Source of the DNA: Cohnella faecalis | GTDB taxonomy: Bacteria > Bacillota > Bacilli > Paenibacillales > Paenibacillaceae | Length of the DNA: 64,000 bases | Direction of reading: 5' to 3' | Assembly: GCF_003570905.1 (NCBI RefSeq) | Contig: NZ_QXJM01000040.1 | Location: forward strand, 496,001-560,000 | Shown here: piece by piece, positions 5,886 through 42,199 of the stretch | How positions within the stretch are numbered: position 1 is the first letter of the stretch | How the letters are laid out: each line of letters starts with the position of its first letter | The notes under the pieces: model-generated | Database searches by the model: none | Told to the model about the DNA's origin: nothing | Seen by the model: the letters and a program-made list of their open reading frames with translations, nothing else | Translations under genes and position numbers: made by a program

Positions 5886-7739
5886 TCATCCTTTCCAGGG
5901 TTGCTCCGCTTCTGCGGAGCGATGTATGCGAATCGACGCGCCGAATAGGCGCGTGAATGCTCGGTCTGGCCGCGAACCGGCCGACAAGCCGGGCAGCGCC
6001 CGCCACTGCTGCGGCGACAAGGCGCCGAACGCGACGAGGCTCGCCGCGAAAGCGGCCGCGCCGACGGCAACGCCGGGCAGCGCGGTGAGCAGCGCGGCGG
6101 CGCGGTCCGGCAGGGCGCGGGCGAGCGCCGCGATTAGCGCCGCGGCGAGTGCGGTGAGCGCGGCCATGGCGGTTAGAGCTGCCGCCGGGCGCCACATAGT
6201 GGCGGCGCGAGGCGCAGGAATGGCAATGCGCTGGCGCAGCGACAGCGCATTAAGCAGTGCGGCGGCGGCGAACGCGAGCGTCATGGCGGCCGCCGCGCCG
6301 TTGATGCCGTAAGCGGGCACTAGCAGCGCGTTAAGCGTGAGCTTTAAGATGGCGGCGGCAGCGAGGTTAACGGCCGGCGCGCGCAGCTCGCCGAGCCCTT
6401 GCAGCAAGCCGCCGCTCACCGCTTGAAGCGTACCGCCGACAGCGGCGAACGCGATGATCGCAAGCGCTGCGGAGCCGCTGTTGTCCGAGAACAGCGCGAT
6501 ATTGACCGGCGACGCGAGCAGAGCGAGGCCGATGGCTGCCGCGCAGCCGATCCACCAGGCGAGCCGGATCGTGAAGGCGGCGCGCATCGCCGCTTCCTCG
6601 CCTCCGCCTTCGCCCCGCGCGCGTGCAGCGGTCAGTGCCGGCACGAGCGCCGCCGCCGCGCCGCTGGCCGCCATTAGAATGAGCTGCAGCAAGGCGACTC
6701 CCCGGTTATACACCCCGAAGCTCGCCATGGCCGATGAAGAAGTTACTTGCGGGTCGTGCTGCAGCAGGCGCGGCACCGAGAAAGCGTCGATCAAGCCAAG
6801 CAACGGCGCCGCGACGGACGCAATAGCGACCGGAATGGCCACGACGGCGATGCGCTTGACGAGAGCCAGCCTCGTTTCCGGCATCCTGACCTTCTTCGGG
6901 CGGGCGAAGCCGGCTGCCGGTGCCGAGCCCGATGATGACGCCGACTTTGCCGCGTTCGCCGTCGGCTCCTCAACCGGGTCTGCCGACGTGGATTCAACGG
7001 CAGTTGCCCCGCTGCTCCCGTATTTCTTGCGAGCTCCTCTGGCCGCGACCGTTAGAGCAATCGGCTCCCGCCTTTTGCGAGCCGGCCAAAGCATAGCCGC
7101 AAGGCCCGCCGATGCTCCCGCCGCCAAGCCGCCGTGAAGCGACGCCGCGGTTGAAGACGGGGACCAGCCAGCCTCAATGGCCCATACGAGCATGACCAGC
7201 ATGAACGCCACTCTGGCCGACTGCTCCACGATCTGTGATACGGCAGGCCGCAGCATCTTCATTTGCCCTTGCCGGAAGCCTCTCATCGCGGCCGTTGCCG
7301 GGGCGAACAGCAGCGCGATGGACGATGTACGAATCGCCGAAGCCGCATCCTTCGCGCCCATCCAGGCCGCGAGAGTATCGGCGAATGCCTGCGCCAGCCC
7401 AAATGCAATCAATCCGCTCAAGCCAAGCAGCACGATCGACCATCGCAATACCCTTTGAGCGTCCTCGTCCTCGCCATCGGCGCTTCTCTCGGCGACGAGC
7501 ACGCTGACGGCCGTCGGCACCCCTGCCGCAGCCAGCGTAATCCACATGACCGCCAACGCGTATACGGCGCTGTACAACCCGAATACTTCGTCTCCGGCAA
7601 CGTTCTGCAGCGGTATTTTTTGCAGCGTTCCGATCAGCTTGGATAGAAGCGCCGCTCCCCCTAGCAGCGCGGCTCCCTTCAGCAGCGTCCCTTGCGCGGA
7701 ATCCCCCGGAATTCCAATTTCCTTCCGTTCCGTCGACAT
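5886..7739 (-). CDS. MATE/MOP-type flippase of the SpoVB/YabM polysaccharide family
   Basis: 617 aa with about 14 predicted membrane helices, starting with GAALLGGAALLSKLIGTLQKIPLQN, the hallmark of the SpoVB/MurJ/RfbX export family. Such proteins flip lipid-linked sugars or peptidoglycan precursors; YabM sits at this position in Bacilli. It is longer than the usual 500-540 aa because of a hydrophilic Ser/Ala-rich insert at about 235-285 between the two halves, and the C-terminal half is strongly Ala-rich. The GTG/ATG choice is settled by ATG at 7739. Lies between spoVT and mazG and probably shares a transcript with mazG. Confidence 0.9.
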   Translation of the reverse strand: MSTERKEIGIPGDSAQGTLLKGAALLGGAALLSKLIGTLQKIPLQNVAGDEVFGLYSAVYALAVMWITLAAAGVPTAVSVLVAERSADGEDEDAQRVLRWSIVLLGLSGLIAFGLAQAFADTLAAWMGAKDAASAIRTSSIALLFAPATAAMRGFRQGQMKMLRPAVSQIVEQSARVAFMLVMLVWAIEAGWSPSSTAASLHGGLAAGASAGLAAMLWPARKRREPIALTVAARGARKKYGSSGATAVESTSADPVEEPTANAAKSASSSGSAPAAGFARPKKVRMPETRLALVKRIAVVAIPVAIASVAAPLLGLIDAFSVPRLLQHDPQVTSSSAMASFGVYNRGVALLQLILMAASGAAAALVPALTAARARGEGGGEEAAMRAAFTIRLAWWIGCAAAIGLALLASPVNIALFSDNSGSAALAIIAFAAVGGTLQAVSGGLLQGLGELRAPAVNLAAAAILKLTLNALLVPAYGINGAAAAMTLAFAAAALLNALSLRQRIAIPAPRAATMWRPAAALTAMAALTALAAALIAALARALPDRAAALLTALPGVAVGAAAFAASLVAFGALSPQQWRALPGLSAGSRPDRAFTRLFGASIRIHRSAEAEQPWKG

Positions 7740-7804
7740 GGCGGTGCTCTCTTCCCCTCTTATCTATCCCACGGTTATCTGTTCCATAACCCAAATTATA
7801 ACCG

Positions 7805-7851
7805 AAAAAAGCTCCCCGCACCGCCTTTCCGGAAGGCTGGGAAGCTTTTTC
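7805..7851 (-). terminator. terminator downstream of spoVT
   Basis: On the minus strand, AAGCTTCCCAGCCTTCC pairs with GGTGCGGGGAGCTT (imperfect) and is followed by a run of six T. It separates spoVT from yabM. Confidence 0.75.
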
Positions 7852-7873
7852 TTTCTTATTCTCCGCTATCGTC

Positions 7874-8416
7874 TTATTGCTCCATCTGCTTCGCAAGAAA
7901 CCCGGCCGCCGTCTCGACCATTTTGCTCTCCATGTCTCCCATCGAGACGCCTTCTTCTTTGCTGAGCAGAACGACCGTTCCGATCGGATCGCCGCCCGCT
8001 ACAATAGGAGCCACCGCAACCGAACTGTAAGTCTCGGCGATGTCCTTTAGGATTTCGTAGCTTCCCGGACCCGGCTCCAAAGCGATTTTCCGATTTTCCA
8101 TGATGTTCTCCAGCAAGTTTCCAACCGATTTTTCGAGAAATTCCTTCTTGGATGCACCCGCCACGGCAATGACCGTATCGCGGTCCGTGATGATGGCGAT
8201 ATGTCCGGTGCTTTCGAACAATGACTCGGCGTATTCCTTGGCGAAGTCGCCCAGCTCGCCGATCGGGGAATATTTCTTCAGAATGACTTCTCCGTCCCGA
8301 TCCACGAAAATTTCAAGCGGATCCCCTTCGCGGATTCGAAGCGTGCGGCGGATTTCCTTCGGAATGACCACCCGGCCGAGGTCATCGATGCGGCGTACAA
8401 TCCCGGTTGCTTTCAT
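7874..8416 (-). CDS. spoVT: stage V sporulation protein T
   Basis: 180 aa. An N-terminal AbrB-type swapped-hairpin DNA-binding domain (residues 1-50, MKATGIVRRIDDLGRVVIPK) is joined to a C-terminal GAF-like domain (about 58-178). SpoVT is made in the forespore under sigma-G and tunes other sigma-G genes. The N-terminal half is closely related to the AbrB at 44588-44842, as expected for this paralogue pair. In B. subtilis spoVT follows mfd closely; here about 14 kb of extra DNA separates it from prsA-mfd. Gap 8417-8599 upstream must contain its promoter; I could not fix the exact sigma-G boxes. Confidence 0.97.
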   Translation of the reverse strand: MKATGIVRRIDDLGRVVIPKEIRRTLRIREGDPLEIFVDRDGEVILKKYSPIGELGDFAKEYAESLFESTGHIAIITDRDTVIAVAGASKKEFLEKSVGNLLENIMENRKIALEPGPGSYEILKDIAETYSSVAVAPIVAGGDPIGTVVLLSKEEGVSMGDMESKMVETAAGFLAKQMEQ

Positions 8417-8599
8417 GGCTCATGTTGCCCCACTTTCGTTGGTGTTTTATGCCTTGGCTGCTTGCCGGTGCGAGATGGGACCGGCCTGTATGGCGAAGCA
8501 AGAGCACTCGGAAAAAGGTGACATTGAATCGTAGGTGTAGTATTCAACCCCTCCCATTTTCTTATGCGTTCACCCTGAGCTGGCGGAATTCGGCAATAA

Positions 8600-8640
8600 G
8601 AAAGGCCTTCTTGCGGATCGCTCCGCCCGAAGGCCTTCCC
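8600..8640 (-). terminator. terminator after metQ
   Basis: Long hairpin on the minus strand, GAAGGCCTTCGGGCGGA paired with TCCGCAAGAAGGCCTTTC. It closes the metNIQ operon. Confidence 0.85.
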
Positions 8641-8658
8641 ATTCGATTGTACGGCTTC

Positions 8659-9563
8659 CTAGAAGGCCGGAACGACCGCTACGCCGTATTTGTCCTCGAT
8701 GAATTTCTTCACTTCCGGCGTCGTCAGCGCCGCGTTCAGCTTCTTGATCTCTTCGCGGTTCTCGTCGCCCTTGCGAATCGTAATGATATTCGCATACGGC
8801 GAGTTGGCGTCCTCGCGGAACAGCGCGGTTTTCGGATCGATCTTCGCTTCCAGCACCAGGTTCGTGTTGATGATGGCTCCATCCAGATCCGGCAAAGCTC
8901 GCGGCAGCGTTGCCGAGTCAGCTTCGACGAAGGTCAGCTTTTTCGGATTGTCCACGATGTCCTTCGGAGTCGCCTCGTACGTGGTCAGACCGTCCTTCAG
9001 CTTGATCAAGCCTTGCTGCTGGAGCAGGACGAGCGCCCGGTATTCGTTCGATGGGTTGTTCGGAATGCCGATCTTGGCGCCGTCCGGCAGCTCGTCCTTC
9101 GATTTGTGCTTATTGGAATAAAAACCGATCGGCTCTACGTGAACCTTCGCCCCGACGACGAAATCGTAGCCTTTTTCCCCTTTGACCGAATCGAGGTAGG
9201 GCACATGTTGAAAATAGTTTGCGTCGATCTGGCCGTCCTTGAGAGCCGGATTCAGTTGGCCTTCGTCGTCCAGGATGACGACCTCCAGATTGACGCCCTG
9301 CGCTTTCAGCGCCGGCTTGATGAATTCCAGAATTTCGGCATGCGGCACCGGAGCCGCGCCAACCTTCAATGTCACTTCCGGTGACGGCGAAGGCGACGGC
9401 GATTCCGAAGCCGGGGGCTGCTCGAAGCGCTGGGACTTGCCGCAACGGACGCTTTCGGCGAAGCCGAATCGGCTTTGTTGTTCTTGCTCGAGCCGCAGCC
9501 CGAAACAATCAAAGCAAAGACAACGAACAGGGATACAAGTGCAAATACCGACTTTTTAGACAT
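8659..9563 (-). pseudogene. metQ: metQ, methionine-binding lipoprotein, split by a frameshift
   Basis: Two reading frames together encode a complete 301-aa NlpA/MetQ lipoprotein. The first (from ATG 9563) carries a lipoprotein signal peptide with lipobox IVSGC (Cys23) and a Ser/Ala/Pro linker. The second, from about 9412 down to 8659, continues the linker (PPASESPSPSPSP) and has the whole binding domain: KVGAAPVPHAEIL, NYFQHVPYLDSVKGEKGYDF, then the TNL and ANSPYANIITIRKG regions. The switch falls at the GGGGG run 9413-9417; one additional base restores a single frame. Downstream of metI as in other MetNIQ operons. Either a sequencing error or a true lesion. Confidence 0.88.
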
Positions 9564-9620
9564 GGTTAACTCCTACCCTTCTTTTTATATATGAAACCAT
9601 GCGCTGTTGGCGCGTAAAAC

Positions 9621-10289
9621 CTATTCCGGCTTGAACCGCTTGCGTTCGATGGATTTGGCGGCGGCGTTGCCCGACCATTGGATCGTCTGCACGAGCGCCA
9701 GAATGACGAAGACGGTCGCGAACAGAATATCTTCCCGGAATCGCTGGTAGCCGAACCGGATAGCCAAGCTTCCGAGCCCTCCCGCTCCGATCGCACCCGC
9801 TACGGCTGTGAACTCCGTAATGGCGATGACGGCAATCGTCATGCTGCGGATCAGCGCAGGCAGCGCTTCCGGCAGCAGCACCCGCCAGACGATGGCGAAG
9901 GAGGAGGCGCCGACGGATTTTGCCGCTTCGATCTTGCCTCCTCCGACCTCCTTCAAGGAGTTCTCTATCATGCGCCCCAGGAAGGGCGCAGCGGCGATGG
10001 ACAGCGATACGATCGCGGCTGTCGGGCCTAGCGTCGTGCCGACGATCCATCTTGCGACAGGAAGCAGCAGCACAATCAGGATGATGTACGGCATGGACCG
10101 TACAACGTTGATGAAGAAGCCGGTCAACCGGTGAACGGCCGGAAACGGCCGAATGCTGCCCTTATCCGTGACGACCAGGGCGATGCCGAGCGCCAGCCCG
10201 AGCGTGAGCGCGAATATCGACGACCAGAACACCATGTACAGCGTTTCTCGCAGCCCTTCCCACAGCAGCTCGATCAAGTCGTCCTTCAT
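9621..10289 (-). CDS. metI: MetI, methionine ABC transporter permease
   Basis: 222 aa, five predicted membrane helices, with the permease coupling loop in the second half (EAAKSVGASSFAIVWRVLLPEALP, the EAA motif). The start is the ATG at 10289, which overlaps the metN stop by four bases (ATGA); an in-frame extension upstream lies inside metN and is rejected. MetI forms the membrane channel of the D/L-methionine importer with MetN and MetQ. Codon use matches the neighbours. Confidence 0.95.
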   Translation of the reverse strand: MKDDLIELLWEGLRETLYMVFWSSIFALTLGLALGIALVVTDKGSIRPFPAVHRLTGFFINVVRSMPYIILIVLLLPVARWIVGTTLGPTAAIVSLSIAAAPFLGRMIENSLKEVGGGKIEAAKSVGASSFAIVWRVLLPEALPALIRSMTIAVIAITEFTAVAGAIGAGGLGSLAIRFGYQRFREDILFATVFVILALVQTIQWSGNAAAKSIERKRFKPE

Positions 10290-11071
10290 ATGCCCGCCCC
10301 CGCTCCGTCCACGGCGAATCTTCGCCTGCGATAATTGTCCGTAATGTTGACGAAGCGCCGCGCCGTATCGCTCTCCGGATGAAGAAACAGCTTGTCGACG
10401 GAGCCGCTCTCCACGATCCGTCCGTTCTCCAGAACGGCCATGTGACGGCAAATATGCTGAAGAACGTCGAGCTCGTGCGTGATGAGCACAATCGTCAGTC
10501 CCAATTGACGGTTGATGTCCGCCAGAAGCTCGAGAATCGAATAAGTCGTATGCGGATCAAGGGCGGAGGTTGCCTCGTCGCTGAGGAGCACATCAGGCTC
10601 GCCTACGAGCGCCCGGGCGATGCCGACTCTCTGCTTCTGTCCGCCGCTGAGCTGCGACGGATACGCGTTCGCCTTATCCGCAAGCCCGACGAGCGCCAGC
10701 ATCTCCTCGACCCGAGGGCGAATATCCTTCTTCGCGCAACCCGCCACGGCGAGCGGGAAGGCAACGTTCTGAAATACCGTCTTGGCATCGAGCAGATTAA
10801 AATGCTGGAAGATCATGCCAATTTTGCGTCTGGCGTTCCGCAGCTCATTCTTGCCCAAATCCGTAATGACGCTGTCCCCGATGACGATGGTGCCGGAATC
10901 GGGCTCCTCCAGTCGGTTCAGGCAGCGGATCAACGTCGACTTGCCCGCGCCGCTGAAGCCGATGATGCCGAAGATGTCGCCTTTTTCTACCCGCAGATTG
11001 ATGTCGTCCAGCGCCTTTACCGTCTGGGTGGGCGTTCGATATGTTTTGTTGATGTTGTTAACGACGATCAT
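10286..11071 (-). CDS. metN: MetN, methionine ABC transporter ATPase, short form
   Basis: 261 aa. Walker A GFSGAGKST near residue 40, signature LSGGQKQRVGIARAL, and Walker B-like VLLSDEATSALD, the SDEATSALD form being typical of MetN. Full-length MetN (about 340 aa) carries a C-terminal NIL/ACT-like domain that binds methionine and shuts the transporter down; here the protein ends shortly after the ATPase domain and metI begins at its stop codon, so that sensor is absent. Operon metN-metI-metQ. I see no SAM-I (S-box) riboswitch in the leader. Confidence 0.93.
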   Translation of the reverse strand: MIVVNNINKTYRTPTQTVKALDDINLRVEKGDIFGIIGFSGAGKSTLIRCLNRLEEPDSGTIVIGDSVITDLGKNELRNARRKIGMIFQHFNLLDAKTVFQNVAFPLAVAGCAKKDIRPRVEEMLALVGLADKANAYPSQLSGGQKQRVGIARALVGEPDVLLSDEATSALDPHTTYSILELLADINRQLGLTIVLITHELDVLQHICRHMAVLENGRIVESGSVDKLFLHPESDTARRFVNITDNYRRRRFAVDGAGAGI

Positions 11072-11492: not shown

Positions 11493-11780
11493 TTGCTGTT
11501 GTCGCAGTCAAGACGAACGTTTACACCCGAGTTTAAGAACCAAATGGTGCAGTTGTACGAGAGCGGGAAGTCCAGAGCGAGCCTCGTGAAAGAGTATGAT
11601 TTGACCGCATCCGCATTGGACCGTTGGATCAGCCAAAGTCAGCGGACAGGCTCATTCGCGGCCAAAGACAATCGCACACCCGAAGAGAACGAAATGTTGG
11701 AATTGCGTAAGGAAAATCAGCGGCTGAAGATGGAGAACGATATTTTAAAGCAAGCCGCGCTGATTATGGGACGAAAGTAA
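11493..11780 (+). CDS. IS3-family transposase OrfA
   Basis: 95 aa helix-turn-helix protein (FTPEFKNQMVQLYESGKS, LTASALDRWISQ) with a C-terminal leucine-zipper-like heptad region (ENEMLELRKENQRLKMENDI). It binds the IS ends. Start is TTG at 11493, preceded at five bases by AAGGAG. Its frame ends at the TAA at 11778, just before orfB; the sequence CGAAAG at the end could allow a -1 shift to make the OrfAB fusion that is the active transposase in this family. Confidence 0.92.
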   Translation: MLLSQSRRTFTPEFKNQMVQLYESGKSRASLVKEYDLTASALDRWISQSQRTGSFAAKDNRTPEENEMLELRKENQRLKMENDILKQAALIMGRK

Positions 11781-11782
11781 AT

Positions 11783-12610
11783 GTGATTCGCAATAATGCG
11801 CACAAGTACTCGGTATCAGCAATGTGTAGCGTCCTGCAACTGCCCCGAAGCACGTATTATTACGAGCCTGTGCCTTCACCCGACCCACAAGAGCAACAAC
11901 TGGAAGAAGTAGTGATAGAGATCTTCAAGAGCAGTCGTAACAATTATGGCACGCGCAAAATCAAGGTGGAACTGGCCAGAAAGTCGCTTCAAGTCTCCCG
12001 TCGTAAGATCGGACGTGTGATGAAGAGGCACGGGTTGGTTTCCACTTACACGGTAGCGCAGTACAAGCCCCACAAAGCCGCGCCAAACGAAGCGGAGATC
12101 GGCAATGCCCTGCAGCGGGAGTTCAGTCAAGAGAAGCCCCTTGCCGTTGTCGTAAGCGACCTGACCTATGTACGGGTGGACGCCAAATGGAATTACGTCT
12201 GCTTATTTGTTGACCTCTTTAACCGTGAAATTATCGGTCACAGTTGCGGTGTAAACAAAACCGCCCAGCTCGTTTACGATGCCATAGCAAGCGTCTCCGT
12301 GCGCCTTGATCGTATCCAGATGTTCCATACAGACCGCGGCAGCGAGTTCGATAATAAACTCATTTCCGAGGCACTGGAGACCTTTGAAATTGAGCGTTCG
12401 CTGAGTAATAAAGGTTGCCCCTACGATAACGCGGTTGCCGAAGCGACGTTTAAGATTTTTAAGACGGAGTTTGTCAAACAAAGGCACTTCCATAATCTGC
12501 AACAATTACAATTGGAGCTTGACGATTACGTACACTGGTTCAATCATCACCGCATTCACGGGACTCTCGGTTATCGTACACCCGTTGAAGCTAGGCAGTG
12601 GCCCTCATAA
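11783..12610 (+). CDS. IS3-family transposase OrfB (DDE integrase core)
   Basis: 275 aa with an HTH_21 region (NYGTRKIKVELARK) and an integrase core whose acidic triad is visible in VVSDLTYVRV, MFHTDRGSEFDN and NAVAEATFKIFKTEF. Ends with the usual HWFNHHRIHGTLGYRTPVE motif. It lies in the -1 frame relative to orfA, beginning with GTG at 11783, so it is made either by frameshifting from orfA or by reinitiation. Resembles the IS150-type branch of IS3. Confidence 0.94.
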   Translation: MIRNNAHKYSVSAMCSVLQLPRSTYYYEPVPSPDPQEQQLEEVVIEIFKSSRNNYGTRKIKVELARKSLQVSRRKIGRVMKRHGLVSTYTVAQYKPHKAAPNEAEIGNALQREFSQEKPLAVVVSDLTYVRVDAKWNYVCLFVDLFNREIIGHSCGVNKTAQLVYDAIASVSVRLDRIQMFHTDRGSEFDNKLISEALETFEIERSLSNKGCPYDNAVAEATFKIFKTEFVKQRHFHNLQQLQLELDDYVHWFNHHRIHGTLGYRTPVEARQWPS

Positions 12611-12639: not shown

Positions 12640-13032
12640 GTAACTGTGAGTGCCTTATTTCAGCCGCTCCCGCCCCTCCGACGCGAATTGTAACTGTGAG
12701 GGCCTTATTTCAGCCGCTCCCCCGCCCTCCGACGCAAATTGTAACTGTGAGGGCCTTATTTCAGCCGCTCCCTCACCCTCCGACGCGAATTGTAACTGTG
12801 AGGGCCTTATTTCAGCCGCTCCCCCGCCATCCGACGCAAATTGTAACTGTGAGGGCCTTATTTCAACCGCTCCCCCGCCCTCCGACGCAAATTGTAACTG
12901 TGAGGGCCTTATTTCAACCGCTCCCCGCCCTCCGACGCAAATTGTAACTGTGAGTGCCTTATTTCAGCCGCTCCCCCACCCTCCGACGCGAATTGTAACT
13001 GTGAGTGCCTTATTTCAACCGCTCCCCCGATC
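12640..13032. repeat. minisatellite array B, right part (about 7.7 copies of 50-51 bp)
   Basis: Units begin GTAACTGTGAGGGCCTTATT and end TCCGACGCAAATT; starts at 12640, 12690, 12741, 12792, 12843, 12894, 12944 and 12995. Differences are few (gGgcc/gTgcc, cAgcc/cAacc, caaatt/cgaatt). It stands just upstream of the first DUF4183 gene, so its edge may touch that gene's promoter. Confidence 0.95.
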
Positions 13033-14398: not shown

Positions 14399-15181
14399 CT
14401 ATTCCTCCCGGTGTTTCAACAGCGAGGCCAGCTCCCGCTTCAGCTTCATAAAGTCCGGATGCTCCCTTACTTCCGGAGTCCGCTCGGCAGGGAGCTCGAC
14501 GCGATATTCGCGCAAAACCCTCCCCGGCCCCGCCGCCATCACGACGATTCGCTGAGAGAGGAAGATGGCTTCGTCGATGTCGTGAGTAATAAACAGGACG
14601 GTCGTCTTCTCCTTGTCCCACACCTCAAGCAGCGCTTCCTGCATTTCCAGCTTCGTCTGCGCATCGAGCGCCCCGAACGGTTCGTCCATCAGAAGCACCT
14701 TCGGCCCGTTCGCCAAAGCACGAGCGATAGCGACGCGCTGCTTCATCCCGCCGGAAAGCTGCTTTGGGAAGTGGTTCGCGAACGATTCCAGTCTCGTAAT
14801 CCTCAAATAATGGTTCGATATTTTGCGTCTATCCAGTATCGGCACTCCGCGCAGCTTCGGTCCGTATTCGATATTCTGCCTGACGGTAAGCCACGGAAAC
14901 AGCGTATACCCTTGAAAAACCATGCCGCGATCCGCGCCGGGACCGACTATCGATTCCGCGTCCACAGACAGTTCCCCTTCGCTCGCTTCCTCCAGCCCCG
15001 CCACAATGCGAAGCAGCGTCGACTTCCCGCAGCCGGAGGGCCCGAGAATCGTGACGAATTCGTTCGCGCCGATCGTCAGATCAATCTCGTCCAAGGCGCG
15101 GAATACCGATTTGCCTGTCCGATAGGTTTTGCCAACGCCCTTGATCTCAATCTCGCCCGCTTTGGCAGCCGATTCGATCAT
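14399..15181 (-). CDS. ABC transporter ATPase, SsuB/TauB/NrtD type, in the guanidine-riboswitch operon
   Basis: 260 aa. Walker A GPSGCGKST, signature LSGGMKQRVAIARAL, Walker B VLLMDEPFGALD and the switch histidine in LFITHDIDEA. The family powers uptake of nitrate, sulfonates, taurine and related small anions or cations. I start at ATG 15181, with GAGGAGG nine bases upstream, rather than at an in-frame TTG at 15190. Third gene of the operon headed by the solute-binding lipoprotein; substrate is inferred from the riboswitch, not from this protein. Confidence 0.93.
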   Translation of the reverse strand: MIESAAKAGEIEIKGVGKTYRTGKSVFRALDEIDLTIGANEFVTILGPSGCGKSTLLRIVAGLEEASEGELSVDAESIVGPGADRGMVFQGYTLFPWLTVRQNIEYGPKLRGVPILDRRKISNHYLRITRLESFANHFPKQLSGGMKQRVAIARALANGPKVLLMDEPFGALDAQTKLEMQEALLEVWDKEKTTVLFITHDIDEAIFLSQRIVVMAAGPGRVLREYRVELPAERTPEVREHPDFMKLKRELASLLKHREE

Positions 15182-15205
15182 TCGGTTCAACCTCCTCTCA
15201 ATCGA

Positions 15206-16063
15206 TTACGCCCATGGAAAGAAACGGCGGTTCAAAAATGCGAAAATGCGGTCGCTGACGAGCCCCAACAAGCCGATGACAATAATGCCGACGAATATTT
15301 GATCCGTGTTCAGAAACCTCTGCGCCTTCATGATCGCGTAGCCAAGACCGCTGTTGACGGCGACGAGCTCGGCGACGACGAGATACGTCCAGGCCCAACC
15401 GAGCATAAGCCGCAGCGTATTGAGCAGACGAGGCTGAACGGCCGGGATAACGACCGTCTGGATCGCCTGCCAGCGGCTCGCTCCGAGCGTGAACGAGGCC
15501 TGCACGAGATCTTTGCTCACAAGCCGCGTATCCGCCGCCACCATCAACGTAAGCTGGAAAAAGCACCCGATGAAAATAAGCAATATTTTCGCCCATTCCC
15601 CGATTCCTGCCCATACCATGATAAGCGGGATGAAGGCGACAGCCGGCATGTATCGGATGAATTCCATCGGAGGCTCGACGAATGCTTCGCCGTATCGGTA
15701 CGTACCGGCCAACAAGCCGATGGGGATTGCAATGACGCAAGCAAGCACGAAGCCCGCCGACACCCTGAAAATACTGATTCCGATATGATGCCAGTACGCG
15801 CTCGTACCGAGAAGGTCGAAGAACGTCGCAAGCACCCGGTCCGGCGTCGGAAGAAAAATCGGATTGACGAACTCCCCGTAGCTAAGGACAGACCAACCCG
15901 CCAGCAGCAGCAAGAACGAGAAGGCTGCCGTCATCCCGAAGCCTTTCCTGGAAATATCCTCGAAAATTTGCATCCGATGACGCCTTTTGCGGACGGCGGC
16001 TTGCCGGTAGGAGGGCGCCCCCGTCTTCGGCGGCCCCTCCTTCACTTCGGTTGCTTGAGTCAT
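15206..16063 (-). CDS. ABC transporter permease, SsuC/TauC type, in the guanidine-riboswitch operon
   Basis: 285 aa. A basic N-terminal tail of about 40 residues precedes six predicted membrane helices; the coupling motif is DLVQASFTLGASRWQAIQTV. Matches the nitrate/sulfonate/bicarbonate-family permeases. It lies six bases after the binding-protein gene and 24 bases before the ATPase gene, so all three are one transcript. Confidence 0.93.
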   Translation of the reverse strand: MTQATEVKEGPPKTGAPSYRQAAVRKRRHRMQIFEDISRKGFGMTAAFSFLLLLAGWSVLSYGEFVNPIFLPTPDRVLATFFDLLGTSAYWHHIGISIFRVSAGFVLACVIAIPIGLLAGTYRYGEAFVEPPMEFIRYMPAVAFIPLIMVWAGIGEWAKILLIFIGCFFQLTLMVAADTRLVSKDLVQASFTLGASRWQAIQTVVIPAVQPRLLNTLRLMLGWAWTYLVVAELVAVNSGLGYAIMKAQRFLNTDQIFVGIIVIGLLGLVSDRIFAFLNRRFFPWA

Positions 16064-16069
16064 TAAGTT

Positions 16070-17095
16070 TTACCCCCCGGCTGCTTTTTGCACGAACTTC
16101 GGCTCTAGGAGCGCATCGATATCGGGAATGTCGGAGATCATATCGAGCTTTTTCAAAAATTCGGCCGTTTTGTTGCCCGTATAGGAAAGCGATGTGTAGT
16201 CGTCCTTCTTCTCGAACGCGGCGACGTTGTCTTGAGCGGTAAACAGCTTGATGCTTTCAAGACCCAGCTTGAAATCCTCGGGCGACGTCTCGGCATGCTT
16301 AGCCAACAGCTCGATCGATTCCTGTTCATGCTCCTTGAAGTAATTCAGCGCATCGAACCAAGCGTCGACGATCTTCTGCACGTCTTCGGGACGGTTTTTC
16401 ACGACCGATTCCTTGAAGACAAGCAGATCGGGAATAAGACCCGGCGTTTCTTTGGAGGAGAACAGGATTTTGCCCTTGCCCTCCTTGACGGCGGTCGTCT
16501 GGAACGGCTCCCACAGAACGGAAGCGTCAGTCTTGCCGGTAATAAAAGCCGGACCCGCGTCGTTGACCGTCATGTTCGTATAGTTGATATCGTTCTCGCT
16601 CATGCCGTTCTTCTCCAGCGCGGTCAGCAGCAGCAGGTGGTCGACGGTGCCTAGCTCGGTAGCGACCGTCTTGCCCTTCAAATCCTTGATGCTGTTGAAC
16701 TCCTGCTTGCTGACGATGGCATCGCCGCCGTCGGAGTTGTCGTTGACGAGAACAGCCCTCAGCTTGATCCCTTTGGAAGCCGGAGCGAGAGTATCCGACA
16801 ACGTCTGGCTGTTCGCGTCCACCTTGCCTGTCGACAGAGCCTGGAGCGAATCGCTGTAGACCGGAAACCATTCGAGTTTGACGTCGACGTCATGCTTGTC
16901 GAAGAACCCTTTCTCTTCGACCAAATACCAGAAAAACCAGCCCGGCCACGGACTAAGCGCAATCTTGATCGGCTCGTCCGTTCCTCCGGAAGCCGCTTCA
17001 TTCTTGCCGCAGGCGGTCATGACGGCAGCAAGCAGCGCAGCGGCGACAAGCGCAGTAACGACAGTCTTGCGAACGCGGAACAATCCTGGTTTCAT
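16070..17095 (-). CDS. ABC transporter solute-binding lipoprotein, probable guanidine-linked substrate
   Basis: 341 aa. Signal peptide with lipobox AVMTAC (Cys29), then a SsuA/THI5-like NMT1 fold (IKIALSPWPGWFFWYLVEEKG, LKGKTVATELGTVDHLLL, DASVLWEPFQTTAV). Start is ATG 17095 behind AAGGAGTGGAGAG; a longer frame to 17194 runs through the riboswitch terminator and is rejected. It is the first gene after a guanidine-I riboswitch, and homologues in this context are thought to import guanidine or a guanidine-derived compound. Substrate specificity within the NMT1 family cannot be read from sequence. Confidence 0.9.
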   Translation of the reverse strand: MKPGLFRVRKTVVTALVAAALLAAVMTACGKNEAASGGTDEPIKIALSPWPGWFFWYLVEEKGFFDKHDVDVKLEWFPVYSDSLQALSTGKVDANSQTLSDTLAPASKGIKLRAVLVNDNSDGGDAIVSKQEFNSIKDLKGKTVATELGTVDHLLLLTALEKNGMSENDINYTNMTVNDAGPAFITGKTDASVLWEPFQTTAVKEGKGKILFSSKETPGLIPDLLVFKESVVKNRPEDVQKIVDAWFDALNYFKEHEQESIELLAKHAETSPEDFKLGLESIKLFTAQDNVAAFEKKDDYTSLSYTGNKTAEFLKKLDMISDIPDIDALLEPKFVQKAAGG

Positions 17096-17136
17096 CTCTC
17101 TCCACTCCTTTTTGATGGTTAAAAATAAACAGAAAA

Positions 17137-17160
17137 AGCCTGAGAGAGATCTCCCAGGCT
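17137..17160 (-). terminator. riboswitch-controlled terminator
   Basis: AGCCTGGGAGA pairs with TCTCTCAGGCT and is followed by TTTTTCTG. The left arm is also the conserved 3' end of the guanidine-I aptamer, so ligand binding should prevent this hairpin and turn the operon on. Confidence 0.88.
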
Positions 17161-17325
17161 TTTGTCCTTCCGTGTTATATGAGCGCCGCAGCAAGCCGTT
17201 GTGCCGTCTGATGCCGCATGCGTCATACGCCGACTCTTGGACCAGCTTGAGCCGCGCAACGCGCGATCAACGGAACCCTAGACGGCTTTGTCGTTCCCCT
17301 TCGGGGCGGAACCTTTATGAATTTG
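17150..17325 (-). promoter_or_regulatory. guanidine-I (ykkC) riboswitch
   Basis: Read on the minus strand, it has the class-I landmarks in order: CTAGGGTTCCG (17281-17271), CTGGTCCAAGAG (17245-17234) and, at the 3' end (17175-17150), ACACGGAAGGACAAAAGCC followed by TGGGAGA. The variable stems lie between. Established: this class binds free guanidinium and commonly controls guanidine carboxylases, exporters and SsuABC-like transporters. Here it precedes a three-gene ABC transporter. Confidence 0.93.
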
Positions 17326-17339
17326 TAAGATTTGTTAAC

Positions 17340-17392
17340 ATTATAGGGTCGATCGCCTGAGCGTGTCAACCTTTATGTTAGTTTACATAACA
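17340..17392 (-). promoter_or_regulatory. sigma-A promoter and GlnR/TnrA-type box of the guanidine transporter operon
   Basis: Minus strand: TTGACA (17369-17364), 18-bp spacer, TATAAT (17345-17340). The 17-mer TGTTATGTAAACTAACA (17392-17376) matches TGTNAN7TNACA fully and is centred about 51 bp upstream of the expected start, the position at which B. subtilis TnrA activates. Nitrogen limitation should therefore gate the riboswitch transcript. Confidence 0.85.
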
Positions 17393-17401
17393 TAAATAAA
17401 T

Positions 17402-18109
17402 TTACACCGTCAAATATCGCATGACCGCAGGGTCGTCGAGGTCGTCTTTTCCGCCTTCCCAGACGATAGAACCCTTCTCCATGATATAAATCTTGTCACA
17501 CACGCTCCGAACGAACTCCAAGCTTTGCTCCACAAGCAAAATAGCGGTCTTCCCTTCGTCGCGGATCGAACGGATAACGTCGCGGATGTCGTCGACGATC
17601 GAAGGCTGAATCCCCTCCGTCGGCTCGTCGAGCACGAGCAGCTCCGGCTCGGAGATGAGCGCACGCGCGAACGCGAGCTGCTGCTGCTGCCCGCCGCTCA
17701 GGTCGCCGCCCCTGCGGCCGTACATCGCCGGAAGCACGGGGAACTTCTCCACCGCTTCGGGCGGAATGACGCGGCTTCTCCGCTTAGTCTTATCGCGAAC
17801 CGCTTCAAGCCCGATCCTCAAGTTCTCGTATACCGACAATTGGGAGAAAATCTCGCGCCCTTGCGGAACGTAGCCGATTCCCTTCTTGGCGCGAATGCCC
17901 GGCGCTTTCTTCGTTACGTCCGACCCTTTGAATTCAACCGACCCTTTGCGCGCTTTCAACAGTCCCATGATGCTCTTGATGAGCGTCGTCTTGCCTACCC
18001 CGTTGCGGCCCATGATGCAGACGACCTGCCCCGGCTCGACCGACAGCGTAACGCCCCGCAGAATGACGCTTTCCCCGTAGCCCGCTTCAAGCTGTTGAAC
18101 CGACAACAT
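17402..18109 (-). CDS. urtE: UrtE, urea ABC transporter ATPase
   Basis: 235 aa, LivF-like. Walker A GRNGVGKTT, signature LSGGQQQQLAFARAL (the QQQQ run is typical of UrtE), Walker B LLVLDEPTEGIQPSI. Last gene of urtABCDE; it starts 23 bp inside the end of urtD. With UrtD it drives high-affinity urea uptake. No urease, urea carboxylase or allophanate hydrolase gene is in the window, so catabolism must be encoded elsewhere. Confidence 0.95.
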   Translation of the reverse strand: MLSVQQLEAGYGESVILRGVTLSVEPGQVVCIMGRNGVGKTTLIKSIMGLLKARKGSVEFKGSDVTKKAPGIRAKKGIGYVPQGREIFSQLSVYENLRIGLEAVRDKTKRRSRVIPPEAVEKFPVLPAMYGRRGGDLSGGQQQQLAFARALISEPELLVLDEPTEGIQPSIVDDIRDVIRSIRDEGKTAILLVEQSLEFVRSVCDKIYIMEKGSIVWEGGKDDLDDPAVMRYLTV

Positions 18110-18872
18110 CGCTATCCCGCCTTTTGCCCAGGTACACTTCCGCCACCCGGTCGTCTTTTTGAACGTCGTCCATCGAGCCTTCCTTCAGCAGCTTGCCTTC
18201 ATGCATAACCGTCACTTTGCTGGCGAAATTGCGCACGAACTCCATATCGTGCTCCACGACGACAACAGTCCGCTTCTGCACGATCTGTTGGAGCAACTCG
18301 CCCGTCTTATCTGTCTCCTTGTCGGTCATGCCGGCCACCGGCTCGTCGAGCAGCAGAATTTCGGGCTCCTGAAGCAGCATCATGCCGATTTCGAGCCACT
18401 GCTTCTGGCCGTGGGAGAGCAGCCCCGCCCTCAAAGCTCGATGATCCTGCAGCCCGATCAGCTCAAGCTCCGCTTCGATCCGTTCGCTCTCCGTCTTCGA
18501 CATCGACGCCCTCAGCGTCGCCCATACGCTGCGATTCTGCGACATGGCGATTTCCAAATTCTCTCCTACCGTAAGCCCAGCGAAAATGGAAGGCGCCTGG
18601 AACTTCCGCCCGATGCCTAGCTCGGCGATCTTGTGCTCCTTGCGGCGGGTAATGTCGATCGTACCGGAACGGCTCTCGAACGCCACCTTGCCGGACACCG
18701 GCTTCACCTTCCCGCAGATCACGTCGAGCATCGTCGTCTTGCCCGCTCCGTTCGGGCCGATCAGGAAGCGAAGCTCTCCTTTTTCCAGCTTTAAATCCAT
18801 CCCCTGCACCGCTTTGAAGCCGTCAAACGCTACGGTTACTTTTTCGCAGGACAGAATGGCCGATGAACTCAT
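18087..18872 (-). CDS. urtD: UrtD, urea ABC transporter ATPase
   Basis: 261 aa, LivG-like. Walker A GPNGAGKTT, the family-specific LLSHGQKQWLEIGMML in place of the usual LSGGQ signature, and Walker B ILLLDEPVAGMTDKETD. The SHGQKQWLEI form is diagnostic of UrtD. It overlaps urtC by 50 bp and urtE by 23 bp, showing tight translational coupling. Confidence 0.96.
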   Translation of the reverse strand: MSSSAILSCEKVTVAFDGFKAVQGMDLKLEKGELRFLIGPNGAGKTTMLDVICGKVKPVSGKVAFESRSGTIDITRRKEHKIAELGIGRKFQAPSIFAGLTVGENLEIAMSQNRSVWATLRASMSKTESERIEAELELIGLQDHRALRAGLLSHGQKQWLEIGMMLLQEPEILLLDEPVAGMTDKETDKTGELLQQIVQKRTVVVVEHDMEFVRNFASKVTVMHEGKLLKEGSMDDVQKDDRVAEVYLGKRRDSDVVGSTA

Positions 18873-19926
18873 GGGAATCCCTCCTTCGGGTCATTCGTTC
18901 GCTCAACGAGCGGAATAGGCCGACGATGCCGCCCGGCAAGAAGACCGTCACGACAATGAACAATGCGCCGAGGAAAAACGTCCAAATATCCGGGTACGAT
19001 TCGCTGAGCCCGCTTTTGGCGGAATTCATGACGACTGCCCCGATAACCGCGCCGATAACCGTCCCTCTGCCTCCGATGGCTACCCATAGCACCATCTCGA
19101 TGGAAGGCACGATAGCCATCATGGAAGGGGAAATAATGCCGACGTGAAGGACGAACAGCATGCCCGCAAGACCCGCAAGACCGGCCGATATCGCGAATGC
19201 CGCCATTTGATACATCGCCGGATCGAAGCCGAGAAACCGAACGCGGTTCTCGCCGTCGCGGATCGCTCGAAGCACCTTGCCGAAGCGGCTCTTCACGAGA
19301 TAGCGGCAAACGAGAAAAGCGAGAATCAGGATGACGACGGTCGCCAGATACAAGCCCGTCTTCGTGGACGACGACTTCAACGAATAGCCGAACAGCGTCG
19401 TATAGCCCGTCAGCCCGTTCGTGCCGCCCGTATAAGCCTGTTGACCGATGAATAACGTGACCGTGATAATAACGAGCGCTTGCGTCAGAATCGTAAAGTA
19501 GACGCCCCGAATCCGGTTGCGGAACGTGAAGAAACCGAGAAACAGGGCGAGCGCCGCCGGGATGACGATCCCCATCGCGACAGCTATTCCGAAATACTTG
19601 AACGGCTCCCAGAACCAAGGGAGCTGCGTCAGCCCGCTCCAATCCATAAAATCGGGCAGGCGGCCCCCGCTGGCCGTCAGCTTGAGGTGCATCGCCATGG
19701 CGTAAGCGCCAAGACCGAAGAACACACCGTGACCGAGGCTGAGAATGCCGGTATAACCCCAAATAAGATCAAGGCCCATCGCCACGATAGCGAAAGCCAA
19801 AAATTTCGCCAGCAAATTCAGCCGAAAATCGCTGAGATAGAGAGGCGCGCAGAACAGCACGGCGGCCGCGGCCGCGTAGCCGATAAGCATCCAAGTGCGC
19901 CGGGAAAACGGGATTGCTTGCAGCAT
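18823..19926 (-). CDS. urtC: UrtC, urea ABC transporter permease
   Basis: 367 aa, LivM-like, about ten predicted helices; typical stretches are LIWGYTGILSLGHGVFFGLGAYAMAMHL and TGGTNGLTGYTTLFGYSL. Start ATG 19926 is preceded by GAAGGTG; an upstream extension to 20052 lies inside urtB and has no ribosome site. Basic C-terminal 25 residues overlap urtD. Confidence 0.94.
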   Translation of the reverse strand: MLQAIPFSRRTWMLIGYAAAAAVLFCAPLYLSDFRLNLLAKFLAFAIVAMGLDLIWGYTGILSLGHGVFFGLGAYAMAMHLKLTASGGRLPDFMDWSGLTQLPWFWEPFKYFGIAVAMGIVIPAALALFLGFFTFRNRIRGVYFTILTQALVIITVTLFIGQQAYTGGTNGLTGYTTLFGYSLKSSSTKTGLYLATVVILILAFLVCRYLVKSRFGKVLRAIRDGENRVRFLGFDPAMYQMAAFAISAGLAGLAGMLFVLHVGIISPSMMAIVPSIEMVLWVAIGGRGTVIGAVIGAVVMNSAKSGLSESYPDIWTFFLGALFIVVTVFLPGGIVGLFRSLSERMTRRRDSHEFIGHSVLRKSNRSV

Positions 19927-19951
19927 GATCGGTTCACCTTCTTTCCCTTCA

Positions 19952-20857
19952 TTAGTCCAGCGAGCGCGTCCGTACCGCGAACAGCCCCATCGGCTTCCAC
20001 TGCAAGAAAGCGACGATGCCGAGGAACACGAGCACTTTGCCCAGCGAAGCATCGGTCCACCACTCGAACAGCGAATTGAACATACCGATTCCGAGAGCTC
20101 CCGCTACGGTGCCGACCAGCTTGCCGACTCCGCCGAGAACGACGACCATGAAGGCGTCAATAATGTAATACGTTCCGATATTGGGACCGATCGGCCCGAT
20201 AAGCGTCAGCGCGCAACCGGCGATACCGGCAATTCCGGAGCCTATCGCAAAAGTAACGGCGTCCACGCGCCGGGTCGAGATGCCCAGACACGCAGCCATC
20301 TCCCGGTTCTGCATAACGGCCCGCATGCGGCGGCCGGCGTTGCTCCGATAAATATACAAGTACATAGCGAACAAGCAAAGCGCGACAAGAGCGATAATGA
20401 ACAGCCTCTTGTAGGGAAGCACGACATCCTCCATAATCGTCCAGCCTCCATCCAGCCATTTCGGACTGGATACGGCGACGTTCGGCGCGCCGAAAATCGT
20501 ACGGGCAAGCTGCTGAAGAATAAGGCCGACGCCCCAGGTGGCCAGCAAGCTGTCGAGCGGCCGTCCGTACAAGAACCGGATGAGCGTCCCTTCAAGCAAA
20601 TAACCGAACGCGAATGCAACGACGAAGCTGAATAAGATCGCTACCGGGAAGTACACCCCGAACATTCCGTCCGGAAGAGATTTCTGAAAAAACTGCTGGG
20701 TCACGTAAGCCGAATAACTGCCGATCATGATGAATTCGCCATGAGCCATGTTAATGACGCGCATAAGGCCGAACGTAATAGCCAGCCCCAGGGCGATCAG
20801 CAGAAGAATCGAGCTGACGCTAATCCCGTTGAATAATTGCGATATCCAAATTTCCAT
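19952..20857 (-). CDS. urtB: UrtB, urea ABC transporter permease
   Basis: 301 aa, LivH-like, about eight helices ([27 protein letters not shown] near the start, then [25 protein letters not shown]). Start ATG 20857 follows GGGGAACGGGTT and begins [11 protein letters not shown]. Actinobacterial and Gram-negative UrtB often carry a large periplasmic N-terminal domain; this Firmicute form lacks it. Follows urtA by about 136 bp, in which I see no strong terminator. Confidence 0.94.
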
Positions 20858-20993
20858 AACCCGTTCCCCTTTCCGCCGGGACCGGCCTGGCGGCCTTTGT
20901 AGCAACGGAGGGAAGCACCGGCTGTTCGCCGGACACTTCCCTCGTTTGCTGGTGAGACTTTGAGTTTGAACGTTGGTTTGAACCTCTTGACTA

Positions 20994-22268
20994 TTACGAG
21001 CCCGAGCTTAGACCCTTCGCCCAATCGTATGTTTTGAGATACGGATCCGGCTTGACCGGGCTTCCGGAATTCCATAGCTCCGTAATTTGGCCGTCCGCCT
21101 GGATTTCGCCGATCCGAACCGTTTTGTAAATATGTTGATTGTCGCCATCGATTGTGACTTTGCCTTCAGGCGCATTCCACTCGATGCCTTTGGAAGCTTC
21201 TTTCACCTTATCGACTTCGAAGGAGCCCGCCTTCTCAACCGCTGCTTTCCACAGATACACGGCCGTATAGCCCGCTTCCATCGGATCGCTCGTGACACGG
21301 TCCGCGCCGTATTCCTTCTTGAAGTTCTCGACGAACTTCTTGTTCTCCGGCGTATCGGTCGTTTGGTAATAGTTCCAGGCAACCAGATGACCGACCAGGT
21401 AATCCGCGCCGATCCCTTTCACTTCTTCCTCGGCGATACTGACGGATACCGTCATCAGATCCTTGGAGGAAATGCCCGCATCCTTCAATTGCTTGAAGAA
21501 GGCAACGTTGCTGTCTCCGTTAAGAGTGTTGTACACGACGTCCGGCTTCGCTTGCTTGATCTTAGCGATAATGGTCGTGTAATCCGTATGTCCGAGCTGG
21601 GTGTACTCTTCTGCGATCGTCTCCGCGCCTTTGGCTGCGAGCTGCGCCTTGATGATCTTGTTCGCGGTACGCGGGAACACGTAGTCGGAACCGAGCAGGA
21701 AGAACTTCTTCTTCCCTTTCTCCAGCAAATAGTCGACCGAAGGTACGATTTGCTGATTCGTCGTTGCGCCGGTATAGAAAATATTAGGGGAAGATTCCAA
21801 GCCTTCGTATTGAACCGGGTACCAGAGCAGCCCTTTCAGCTCTTCGAATACCGGAAGCATCGCTTTGCGGCTCGCGGACGTCCATCCGCCGAACACCGTC
21901 GCGACTTTATCTTCCGAGAGGAGCTTGCGAGCTTTCTCCGCAAACGTCGGCCAGTCGGACGCGCCGTCCTCGATGACCGGTTCGATCTGCTTGCCGAGCA
22001 CTCCGCCTGCGGCATTGATCTCTTTAATAGCCATCAGCTCCGAGTCTCTAACCGTAACCTCGCTGATTGCCATTGTGCCGCTAAGCGAATGAAGAATACC
22101 CACTTTGACCTTCTCGCCTCCGGACGCCGTCGGCGATGACGACGATGATGATGGCGATGCGGAAGACGATGCCCCCGAGTTCTCGTTGTTGTCCTTGCCG
22201 CAAGCCGCCAGTACCAAGCTTGCCGTCATTGCCAATACGAAACCTTTGAGCCAATTGCTTTTCTTCAT
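20994..22268 (-). CDS. urtA: UrtA, urea-binding lipoprotein
   Basis: 424 aa. Lipoprotein signal peptide with LVLAAC (Cys23), a Ser-rich linker (about 27-50), then a type-I periplasmic-binding fold: [45 protein letters not shown] [19 protein letters not shown], and [15 protein letters not shown], all standard UrtA blocks. ATG 22268 with GGGGAGTGG upstream. Heads the operon and has its own nitrogen-type promoter. Confidence 0.95.
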
Positions 22269-22349
22269 TGCTCCACTCCCCATCCTAGTGTTGGTTCTCT
22301 CTAAAATCCGAACGTTCGACTCTATTCGGCGTCTATCGTTCGTTAACCC

Positions 22350-22390
22350 ATTATATGGCTATGTAAGATTTGGTGTCAATATACATAACA
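22350..22390 (-). promoter_or_regulatory. sigma-A promoter with overlapping GlnR/TnrA-type box, urt operon
   Basis: Minus strand TTGACA (22379-22374), 18-bp spacer, TATAAT (22355-22350). The 17-mer TGTCAATATACATAACA (plus strand 22374-22390) fits TGTNAN7TNACA perfectly and overlaps the -35 box, a geometry different from that at 17376-17392. Confidence 0.85.
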
Positions 22391-41778: not shown

Positions 41779-41832
41779 CCGCTTGAGGACGTCAAAAGTG
41801 GGATTGGGCAGCACGAGGTTGACCTCTCTCTG

Positions 41833-42012
41833 TAACGCTTGCGAGGTTAGCTGTCGGGTTCGGACAAAGAGAGTTGCCCTATTCGCATGCCGGCTTCATG
41901 AGCCGCTTCCGCGTAATTCACCCCAAGATTGCTCGGACCGCTGCGTCGTCCTGGAATCGGATCATACGCAGTTGTTGGGTCCCCCGCTCTTCCGTATTGG
42001 AAGATTAAGCGT
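41833..42012 (-). promoter_or_regulatory. cyclic-di-AMP (ydaO/yuaA) riboswitch
   Basis: Conserved ydaO blocks on the minus strand in order: CGCTTAATCTTCC near 42011, GGGGGACCC (41985-41977), CTTGGGGTGAATTACG (41927-41912), CTCTTTGTCCGAACCCGACA and AGCTAACCTCG (41870-41842). Ligand binding turns expression off through the terminator in this class. Between here and tatD (42013-42199) I see nothing further than a presumed promoter. Confidence 0.94.
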
Positions 42013-42199
42013 ACTGGAAAAGGGATGCCATATTCAAACTACTGAGTCTGATAATAACCTCTGGATACCGAACGTGTAAAGACGGGTCAATGGGCGAATT
42101 TGCCCAATTTCGAGTAAATTAGGCCTTGGTTTCGGATTTTTTGGCGACGATGCTAGTTTTTTCTGTATCCTATTCCGTTTTTCTCGGGATGTTACCGTT

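Follow-up and report, generated by a model that had tools for sequence, protein, structure and literature searches.

A guanidine-I riboswitch leader with paired GlnR/TnrA boxes before a predicted guanidine importer operon in Cohnella

Introduction

The locus described here raises the question of what decides whether a transporter operon that stands behind both a nitrogen-type promoter and a candidate guanidine riboswitch is transcribed, and of what that transporter carries. On the minus strand of the window (the whole 64-kb stretch of DNA analysed), a box of the GlnR/TnrA type, a promoter, a second box, an aptamer and a terminator follow one another within 270 nt of the end of urtE, and after the terminator come genes for an SsuA/NMT1-type protein, predicted to be a lipoprotein, and for a permease and an ATPase (Table 1). 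The use of guanidine as a nutrient has been studied for a short time only. Nitrate/sulfate/bicarbonate transporters and urea carboxylases are named among ykkC-linked genes in the available text of PMC7266159, and guanidine ABC importers of enterobacteria and Synechocystis are described in the accessible part of PMC12186494.

Table 1. Features of the leader and its flanking operons, in coordinates of the window.
Feature	Position	Strand	Basis or remark
GlnR/TnrA box I (TGTTATGTAAACTAACA)	17376..17392	-	exact TGTNAN7TNACA; centre -51 from predicted +1
-35 hexamer TTGACA	17364..17369	-	sequence
-10 hexamer TATAAT	17340..17345	-	sequence; 18-nt spacer from -35
GlnR/TnrA box II (TGTTAACAAATCTTACA)	17324..17340	-	exact TGTNAN7TNACA; centre +1
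Guanidine-I (ykkC subtype 1) riboswitch aptamer	17149..17292	-	RF00442 match, covariation
Diagnostic A (A46 position; pyrimidine in ppGpp/PRPP subtypes)	17235	-	sequence and the rule in the available text of PMC6031431
Intrinsic terminator	17134..17163	-	left arm formed by the aptamer's 3' end
Substrate-binding protein (SBP; predicted lipoprotein), SsuA/NMT1 family	16070..17095	-	TIGR01728, PF09084
ABC permease of the transporter	15206..16063	-	PF00528
ABC ATPase of the transporter	14399..15190	-	PF00005
urtABCDE urea ABC transporter operon	17402..22283	-	TIGR03407-03411, all five above cut-off
GlnR/TnrA box at urtA	22374..22390	-	exact motif; 3' half holds -35 of a TTGACA-18-TATAAT promoter

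Results

A consensus promoter lies between two exact boxes

The promoter of the leader, TTGACA-18-TATAAT at 17369-17340 on the minus strand, has 12/12 consensus bases. Box I is placed 23 nt before its -35 hexamer, which is the commonest place among Bacillota leaders, and box II starts 52 nt after box I, its first base being the last base of the -10 hexamer (17340); the same spacing is found in the Cohnella loci L126-L128. The initial annotation had described one TnrA/GlnR-type 17-mer centred about -51 from a consensus promoter. It can be seen that this box is exact and the promoter perfect, but that a second exact box, at +1, had been missed. Three exact boxes occur in the window, against 0.27 expected, and the only one besides boxes I and II is that at urtA, where the overlap of box and -35 hexamer is a layout of the repressor type before the urea transporter operon.

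The aptamer has the features of guanidine-I riboswitches

When searched as 371 nt, the leader matched RF00442 over the full length of the model (positions 1-107) with 61.9 bits (E 8e-11). The covariance check suggested by the initial annotation thus gave a full-length match, although one that falls short of the gathering score of 63 by 1.1 bits, and because of this shortfall the aptamer is absent from a whole-window scan at the gathering score. The P2 arm holds a stretch of 40 nt in place of the 10 nt of the model, and this long arm is a likely reason for the sub-threshold score. Twelve of 13 orthologous leaders in relatives pass 63 bits, the remaining one scoring 58.9. The aptamer folds better than each of 200 shuffles (z -3.4), and in an alignment of 14 sequences 16 of the 26 consensus pairs are kept by one or more sequences in which both paired bases have changed; the core strings are invariant across these 14 leaders.

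The accessible part of PMC6031431 gives a base that separates guanidine-I aptamers (A46) from the ppGpp and PRPP subtypes of the ykkC fold, which have a pyrimidine. We placed the equivalent of A46 by inference from the GGUCC-R-AG-A-G core and from leaders of the xpt type, and the diagnostic base so defined is A in the window and in 72/72 of the SBP leaders collected below. Three xpt-pbuX leaders of relatives that were found with the same model (L092, L094 and L097; one over and two under the gathering score) have C at this base and a purine aptamer ahead of it. They are probably guanine-PRPP tandems, and they provide a built-in contrast for the call of ligand type. Subtype 2 of ykkC (ppGpp, PRPP) was also considered for the window leader and was ruled out by the diagnostic A together with the gene context. 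The full-length match, the diagnostic A and the covariation uphold the class-I ykkC landmarks that had been claimed for the leader of the 16070-17095 gene.

A terminator that shares its left arm with the 3' end of the aptamer had likewise been claimed, and the hairpin at 17163-17134 indeed takes in the final 15 nt of the aptamer. The same sharing is present in 68 of the 70 leaders that have the motif, 73 having been examined with a fold-based finder; L137, L156 and L183 gave no motif match, and L195 and L199, both from Pseudomonadota, are without a hairpin by this test. A stricter finder gave 32/73 leaders and was judged too strict. Sharing of this kind is consistent with an aptamer that would bind guanidinium and act as an ON switch.

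Nitrogen boxes follow the class of the downstream gene

We collected 76 of the 78 RF00442 matches from 60 genomes, leaving out two of 37.4 bits; 44/60 genomes have a match. The leaders were sorted by their first downstream gene, with family names taken from scans of a few members per class and the rest assigned by similarity. An exact box lies within 200 nt upstream in all 16 leaders of SBP transporters, in the single ATPase-first leader, in 11 of the 14 that precede a UAAP1/UAAP2-carboxylase operon and in all four of APC permeases. Among the remaining classes it was found in one of 37 leaders of small multidrug-type exporters (leader 45), in none of the three xpt leaders and not in the one unassigned leader. 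Import and assimilation leaders are therefore boxed in 32/35 cases versus 1/37 for exporter leaders (Fisher's p 9e-16, a test that treats leaders as independent, though those of related species are not), and with one mismatch allowed the figures are 33/35 versus 5/37. Boxed leaders have a GC content of 38% versus 57% for exporter leaders; shuffles, which allow for composition, produced a box in 0.5-1.5% of cases when made from the boxed classes.

Among the unboxed carboxylase leaders, leader 4 has two single-mismatch boxes, and leaders 16 (L119) and 61 (L116) lie behind transporter genes with no promoter of their own by scan. Each of these latter two is the second guanidine-I aptamer of its locus, placed between the transporter genes and UAAP1. 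Thirteen genomes have leaders of both kinds, and in 11 of them boxes are present at every assimilation leader and at none of the exporter leaders, the two exceptions being the holders of leaders 4 and 61. The genome of the window is one of the 11: its leader here and that of a carboxylase operon on contig 30 are boxed, and the exporter leader on contig 33 is not. We conclude that the nitrogen boxes track the downstream genes and not the aptamer.

Boxes are conserved at related SBP loci

A second set of 77 loci was obtained from a collection of 84,980 species with two peptide patterns derived from 14 aligned SBPs, and so does not cover all such loci; nine of the loci repeat the 60-genome set and 68 are new. 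The aptamer core is found within 700 nt upstream in 72/77 loci, the others being L176, L190, L192, L194 and L201, of which L176 still has two boxes. An exact box lies within 260 nt in 67 of the 72 aptamer-bearing loci, and 39 have two or more; at L191 the only exact box is 252 nt off. L147 lacks an exact box and has two single-mismatch boxes at the usual places. The four other unboxed loci are labelled Tepidiphilus, Thiobacillus or Thiobacillaceae, which are Pseudomonadota and use other nitrogen regulators, so that exact boxes are present in 67/68 Bacillota leaders and in 0/4 of those from Pseudomonadota. The reversed motif occurs in 5/68 Bacillota leaders, which is more often than the true motif in shuffles (31/3400), and outside the leaders 21 boxes were counted in 723,445 nt.

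When genomes of the order were scanned for a box 31-91 nt ahead of CTAGGGTTCC, a pattern that misses boxes farther off, 51/296 matched, versus 0/296 for the reversed motif; a control in which the scan was read backwards matched one genome, G113. A box by chance is ruled out by the shuffles and by the reversed-motif scan. Among the matches listed, 30 loci contain 39 boxed leaders, of which 20 precede an SBP gene, 10 an APC permease gene, eight UAAP1, one an unassigned gene and none an exporter gene.

Some of these loci have an arrangement of their own. At L217, L218, L219, L221 and L226-L229, genes for an APC permease and UAAP1 diverge from one intergenic region, and each of the two genes has a guanidine-I core to itself, with an exact GlnR box no more than 130 nt away; an SBP gene and an APC permease gene are paired divergently in the same manner at L206. 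At two more distant boxed SBP loci there is an amidohydrolase gene (N-ethylammeline chlorohydrolase-like; L066, 2835-4274) and a RutB/biuret hydrolase-like gene (L068, 3427-4044), both matches being below curated cut-offs. The transporters of these two loci are perhaps for other guanidino or triazine compounds.

The regulator and the sign of control

The genome of the window has one clear GlnR-like MerR gene, which lies directly before glnA and whose product we take to be GlnR from this context. No clear TnrA was found in the genome, other MerR matches being weak (the best 39% over 81 residues). Of the two names in the initial annotation, TnrA/GlnR, the second is thus likely to be that of the regulator that would bind the boxes of the window.

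Box positions were measured from the predicted +1 in 69 loci including the window (L189 had no promoter call). The centres of exact boxes fall at -50 to -52 (36 boxes), -38/-39 (27), -89/-90 (17), +1 (four) and +11 (18), with eight elsewhere. In an alternative layout, found in a Paenibacillus group that includes P. alginolyticus (L167), boxes are at -89 and over the -35 hexamer. Exact pairs are spaced by 51-52 nt (20 pairs), 61-62 nt (15), 49 nt (three), 100 nt (three) and, once each, 54, 63, 72, 73 and 75 nt. Helical phasing of the pairs is a lead to follow: a vector test did not favour a period of about 10.4 over 10.0 or 11.0, and the clades are not independent.

An upstream site near -51 is where an activator would be expected, as with TnrA. 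By position, box I would therefore be read as an activator site and box II as a repressor site. A precedent for such a pair is the nif promoter of P. polymyxa, where GlnR activates from an upstream site 58 bp before the -35 hexamer and represses from a downstream one 24 bp after the start, according to the available text of PMC6191146. For B. subtilis, GlnR is described as purely a repressor and TnrA as the activator (accessible part of PMC3412718), so that the case for activation from box I comes from the GlnR of Paenibacillus. Since the boxes flank the promoter at -51 and +1, the gate is as likely to include repression when nitrogen is in excess as it is to include activation.

The reading that we favour, and that we consider reasonably probable, is a two-stage gate on a guanidine importer, with initiation controlled by GlnR and elongation by guanidine-dependent antitermination. 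At the first stage GlnR would act on a strong sigma-A promoter through a box at an activator position (-51) and a box at a repressor position over the start, and transcription would begin mainly under nitrogen limitation. At the second, the nascent leader would fold the guanidine-I aptamer. Were guanidine absent, the 3' end of the aptamer would pair into the terminator and transcription would stop; were it present, the aptamer would retain this strand and polymerase would run on into the three transporter genes. The importer would then supply guanidine to a guanidine carboxylase, to UAAP1/UAAP2 (of the carboxyguanidine deiminase type) and to an allophanate hydrolase encoded elsewhere in the genome. 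The binding of GlnR, the sign of its effect, the ligand of the aptamer, antitermination and the transport substrate are all predicted elements of this scheme, and an AND logic of nitrogen limitation plus guanidine is what the anatomy of the leader would suggest.

The same gate could operate with GlnR as a repressor only, both boxes closing the promoter in nitrogen excess and no activation being needed, a possibility that we regard as rather unlikely. It would agree with the B. subtilis protein as described in PMC3412718 (in the part available), with a 12/12 promoter that is strong unaided, with a box II that covers the start site, and with the other Paenibacillus group, in which the box holds the -35 hexamer itself as it does at urtA in the window. 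However, box I is where an activator would be expected in loci of the type of the window, as the 36 exact boxes at -50 to -52 indicate, and P. polymyxa GlnR does activate nif from an upstream site (PMC6191146, available text).

We think it improbable that readthrough from the urt operon is the main source of transcript, with the riboswitch gating it and the local promoter being minor. The operon lies directly upstream of the leader on the same strand, with the urtE stop at 17402, and the stretch of about 10 nt from there to box I showed no terminator; moreover, guanidine-I leaders 16 and 61, which lie inside gene runs, do without a promoter and box of their own. At the locus of the window, however, a perfect promoter with two conserved boxes intervenes, and the boxed promoter is also kept in relatives whose upstream region showed no urtE (the gene is there in 19/77 loci).

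The transporter and the guanidine assimilation genes

The three products were called an SsuABC-like transporter in the initial annotation, and profile searches agree: the SBP scores 204 bits with TIGR01728 (SsuA-type), above the curated cut-off of 163.5, and matches PF09084, and the permease and ATPase match PF00528 and PF00005. The scores of the SBP with TIGR03427 (urea-carboxylase-linked SBP; 134.7 bits, cut-off 333.9), TIGR01729 (taurine; 57.5 bits, cut-off 304.25) and NF008588 (aliphatic sulfonate; 71.3 bits, cut-off 299) are below the respective cut-offs. An AlphaFold model of the SBP has a pLDDT of 90.6 with a 45-row alignment (a 14-row alignment gave a poor model, at 60), and the predicted fold is nearest SsuA/TauA.

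Among the 77 SBP neighbourhoods, a guanidine/urea carboxylase is found in 26, UAAP1/2 in 23 and urtE upstream in 19. In the genome of the window, contig 30 carries a boxed guanidine-I leader followed by genes for guanidine carboxylase, UAAP1, UAAP2 and allophanate hydrolase, the carboxylase gene (L061) being split over overlapping frames at 6957-8087 and 7808-10591 by a frame break. The assembly is rated 92% complete with 6.9% contamination, and so the carboxylase contig may not belong to the genome. A search with the agmatinase model for a guanidinase route gave four unassigned matches, one of them a fragment, on the contig of the window.

On the basis of gene context, the SBP is predicted to bind guanidinium. 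The earlier proposal of an importer for guanidine or a guanidine-derived nitrogen source gains support, as regards guanidine, from the carboxylase and UAAP1/2 genes beside the relatives' SBP genes, and it suggests a substrate for a protein clade whose nearest named model is sulfonate-binding. Import of urea, a sulfonate or another guanidino compound, with guanidine merely a signal, seems to us highly improbable; the SBP is in the SsuA/TauA fold group and a urea transporter adjoins, yet that same adjoining operon means that a separate urea transporter is already there, the SBP recurs beside carboxylase or UAAP1/2 genes at the frequencies given above, and it is far under the cut-offs of the taurine model and of one named sulfonate model. 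An aptamer ligand other than guanidine, whether methylguanidine or another ykkC ligand, is hardly credible, for even though the ykkC fold switches ligand with few changes (PMC6031431, accessible part), the diagnostic A is constant in the 72 SBP leaders against C in the three xpt-pbuX leaders behind a purine aptamer, and the gene context is guanidine/urea carboxylase.

Discussion

The two-stage gate that we favour is built of known parts. The leader is like the known guanidine-I leaders (RF00442) of importers and carboxylases in its aptamer core, diagnostic A, ON-type sharing of the terminator and gene context, and differs from them in that initiation would also be under paired GlnR boxes and in its long P2 arm. 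As at P. polymyxa nif, two GlnR sites flank the -35/-10 region, the upstream nif site activating and the downstream one repressing; the sites of the window, however, start 52 nt apart whereas those of nif are 118 bp apart, and no riboswitch is mentioned for nif in the available text (PMC6191146).

A two-input gate with a ykkC-fold aptamer also exists in the guanine-PRPP tandem riboswitch, in which a purine aptamer precedes the ykkC-fold aptamer (PMC5912903, accessible part). Unlike at the window, both of its inputs are RNA aptamers, and the three xpt-pbuX cases of relatives are without an exact GlnR box.

The B. subtilis exporter gene ykkC, which presumably has a guanidine-I leader, is like the window in having a nitrogen regulator site at its promoter. 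This site is a TnrA box in a genome-wide TnrA binding map, and a tnrA mutation was without effect on ykkC expression under the conditions used there (PMC4475385, in the part available). In view of this box we do not claim a split between exporters and importers for all Bacilli; exporter leader 45 of the present set is boxed as well.

The aptamers called 'guanidine' at ilv-leu operons we take to be probably of the ppGpp subtype. In Bacillota the ilv-leu operon is described with TnrA and CcpA at its promoter, a T-box and, in some cases, a 'guanidine' riboswitch, and T-box plus 'guanidine' aptamers are described at branched-chain amino acid operons (PMC12452182, available text). As in the layout of the window, a nitrogen regulator is followed at these operons by control of transcription through RNA, which in some of them includes a ykkC-fold aptamer; they differ in that their genes are for amino acid synthesis, and no GlnR-guanidine gate is described in the available text of that paper.

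In the open-access literature, no link between GlnR and a guanidine riboswitch was found among the matches listed, and the only cases found there of a nitrogen regulator tied to a guanidine riboswitch are B. subtilis ykkC and ilv-leu. The word guanidine is absent from the main text of a GlnR map of P. polymyxa (PMC9948412) by term search. While the parts are known, then, our open-access search did not find in print their conserved combination or its near-restriction to assimilation genes.

For the Paenibacillus-Cohnella kin we put forward a broader proposal, whose chances we judge to be evenly balanced. The guanidine-I leaders of import and breakdown genes would be wired into the GlnR regulon and those of exporters left ungated, guanidine being food only under nitrogen shortage and a toxin always; paired boxes about 52 or 62 nt apart, two spacings that differ by one helical turn, would be in keeping with GlnR dimers that co-operate. 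Within the same genomes the boxes occur at assimilation genes and hardly ever at export genes, and a conserved serial gate would explain how a toxic compound comes to be imported only when nitrogen is needed.

Other features of the window

No tRNA gene was detected when the window was scanned for them. A c-di-AMP (ydaO) riboswitch is present at 41821-42021 on the minus strand (92.6 bits). An insertion element at 11493-12610 has two transposase frames and is presumably of the IS3 type from its domain make-up, and after it, at about 12650-12950, short direct repeats can be seen in translation.
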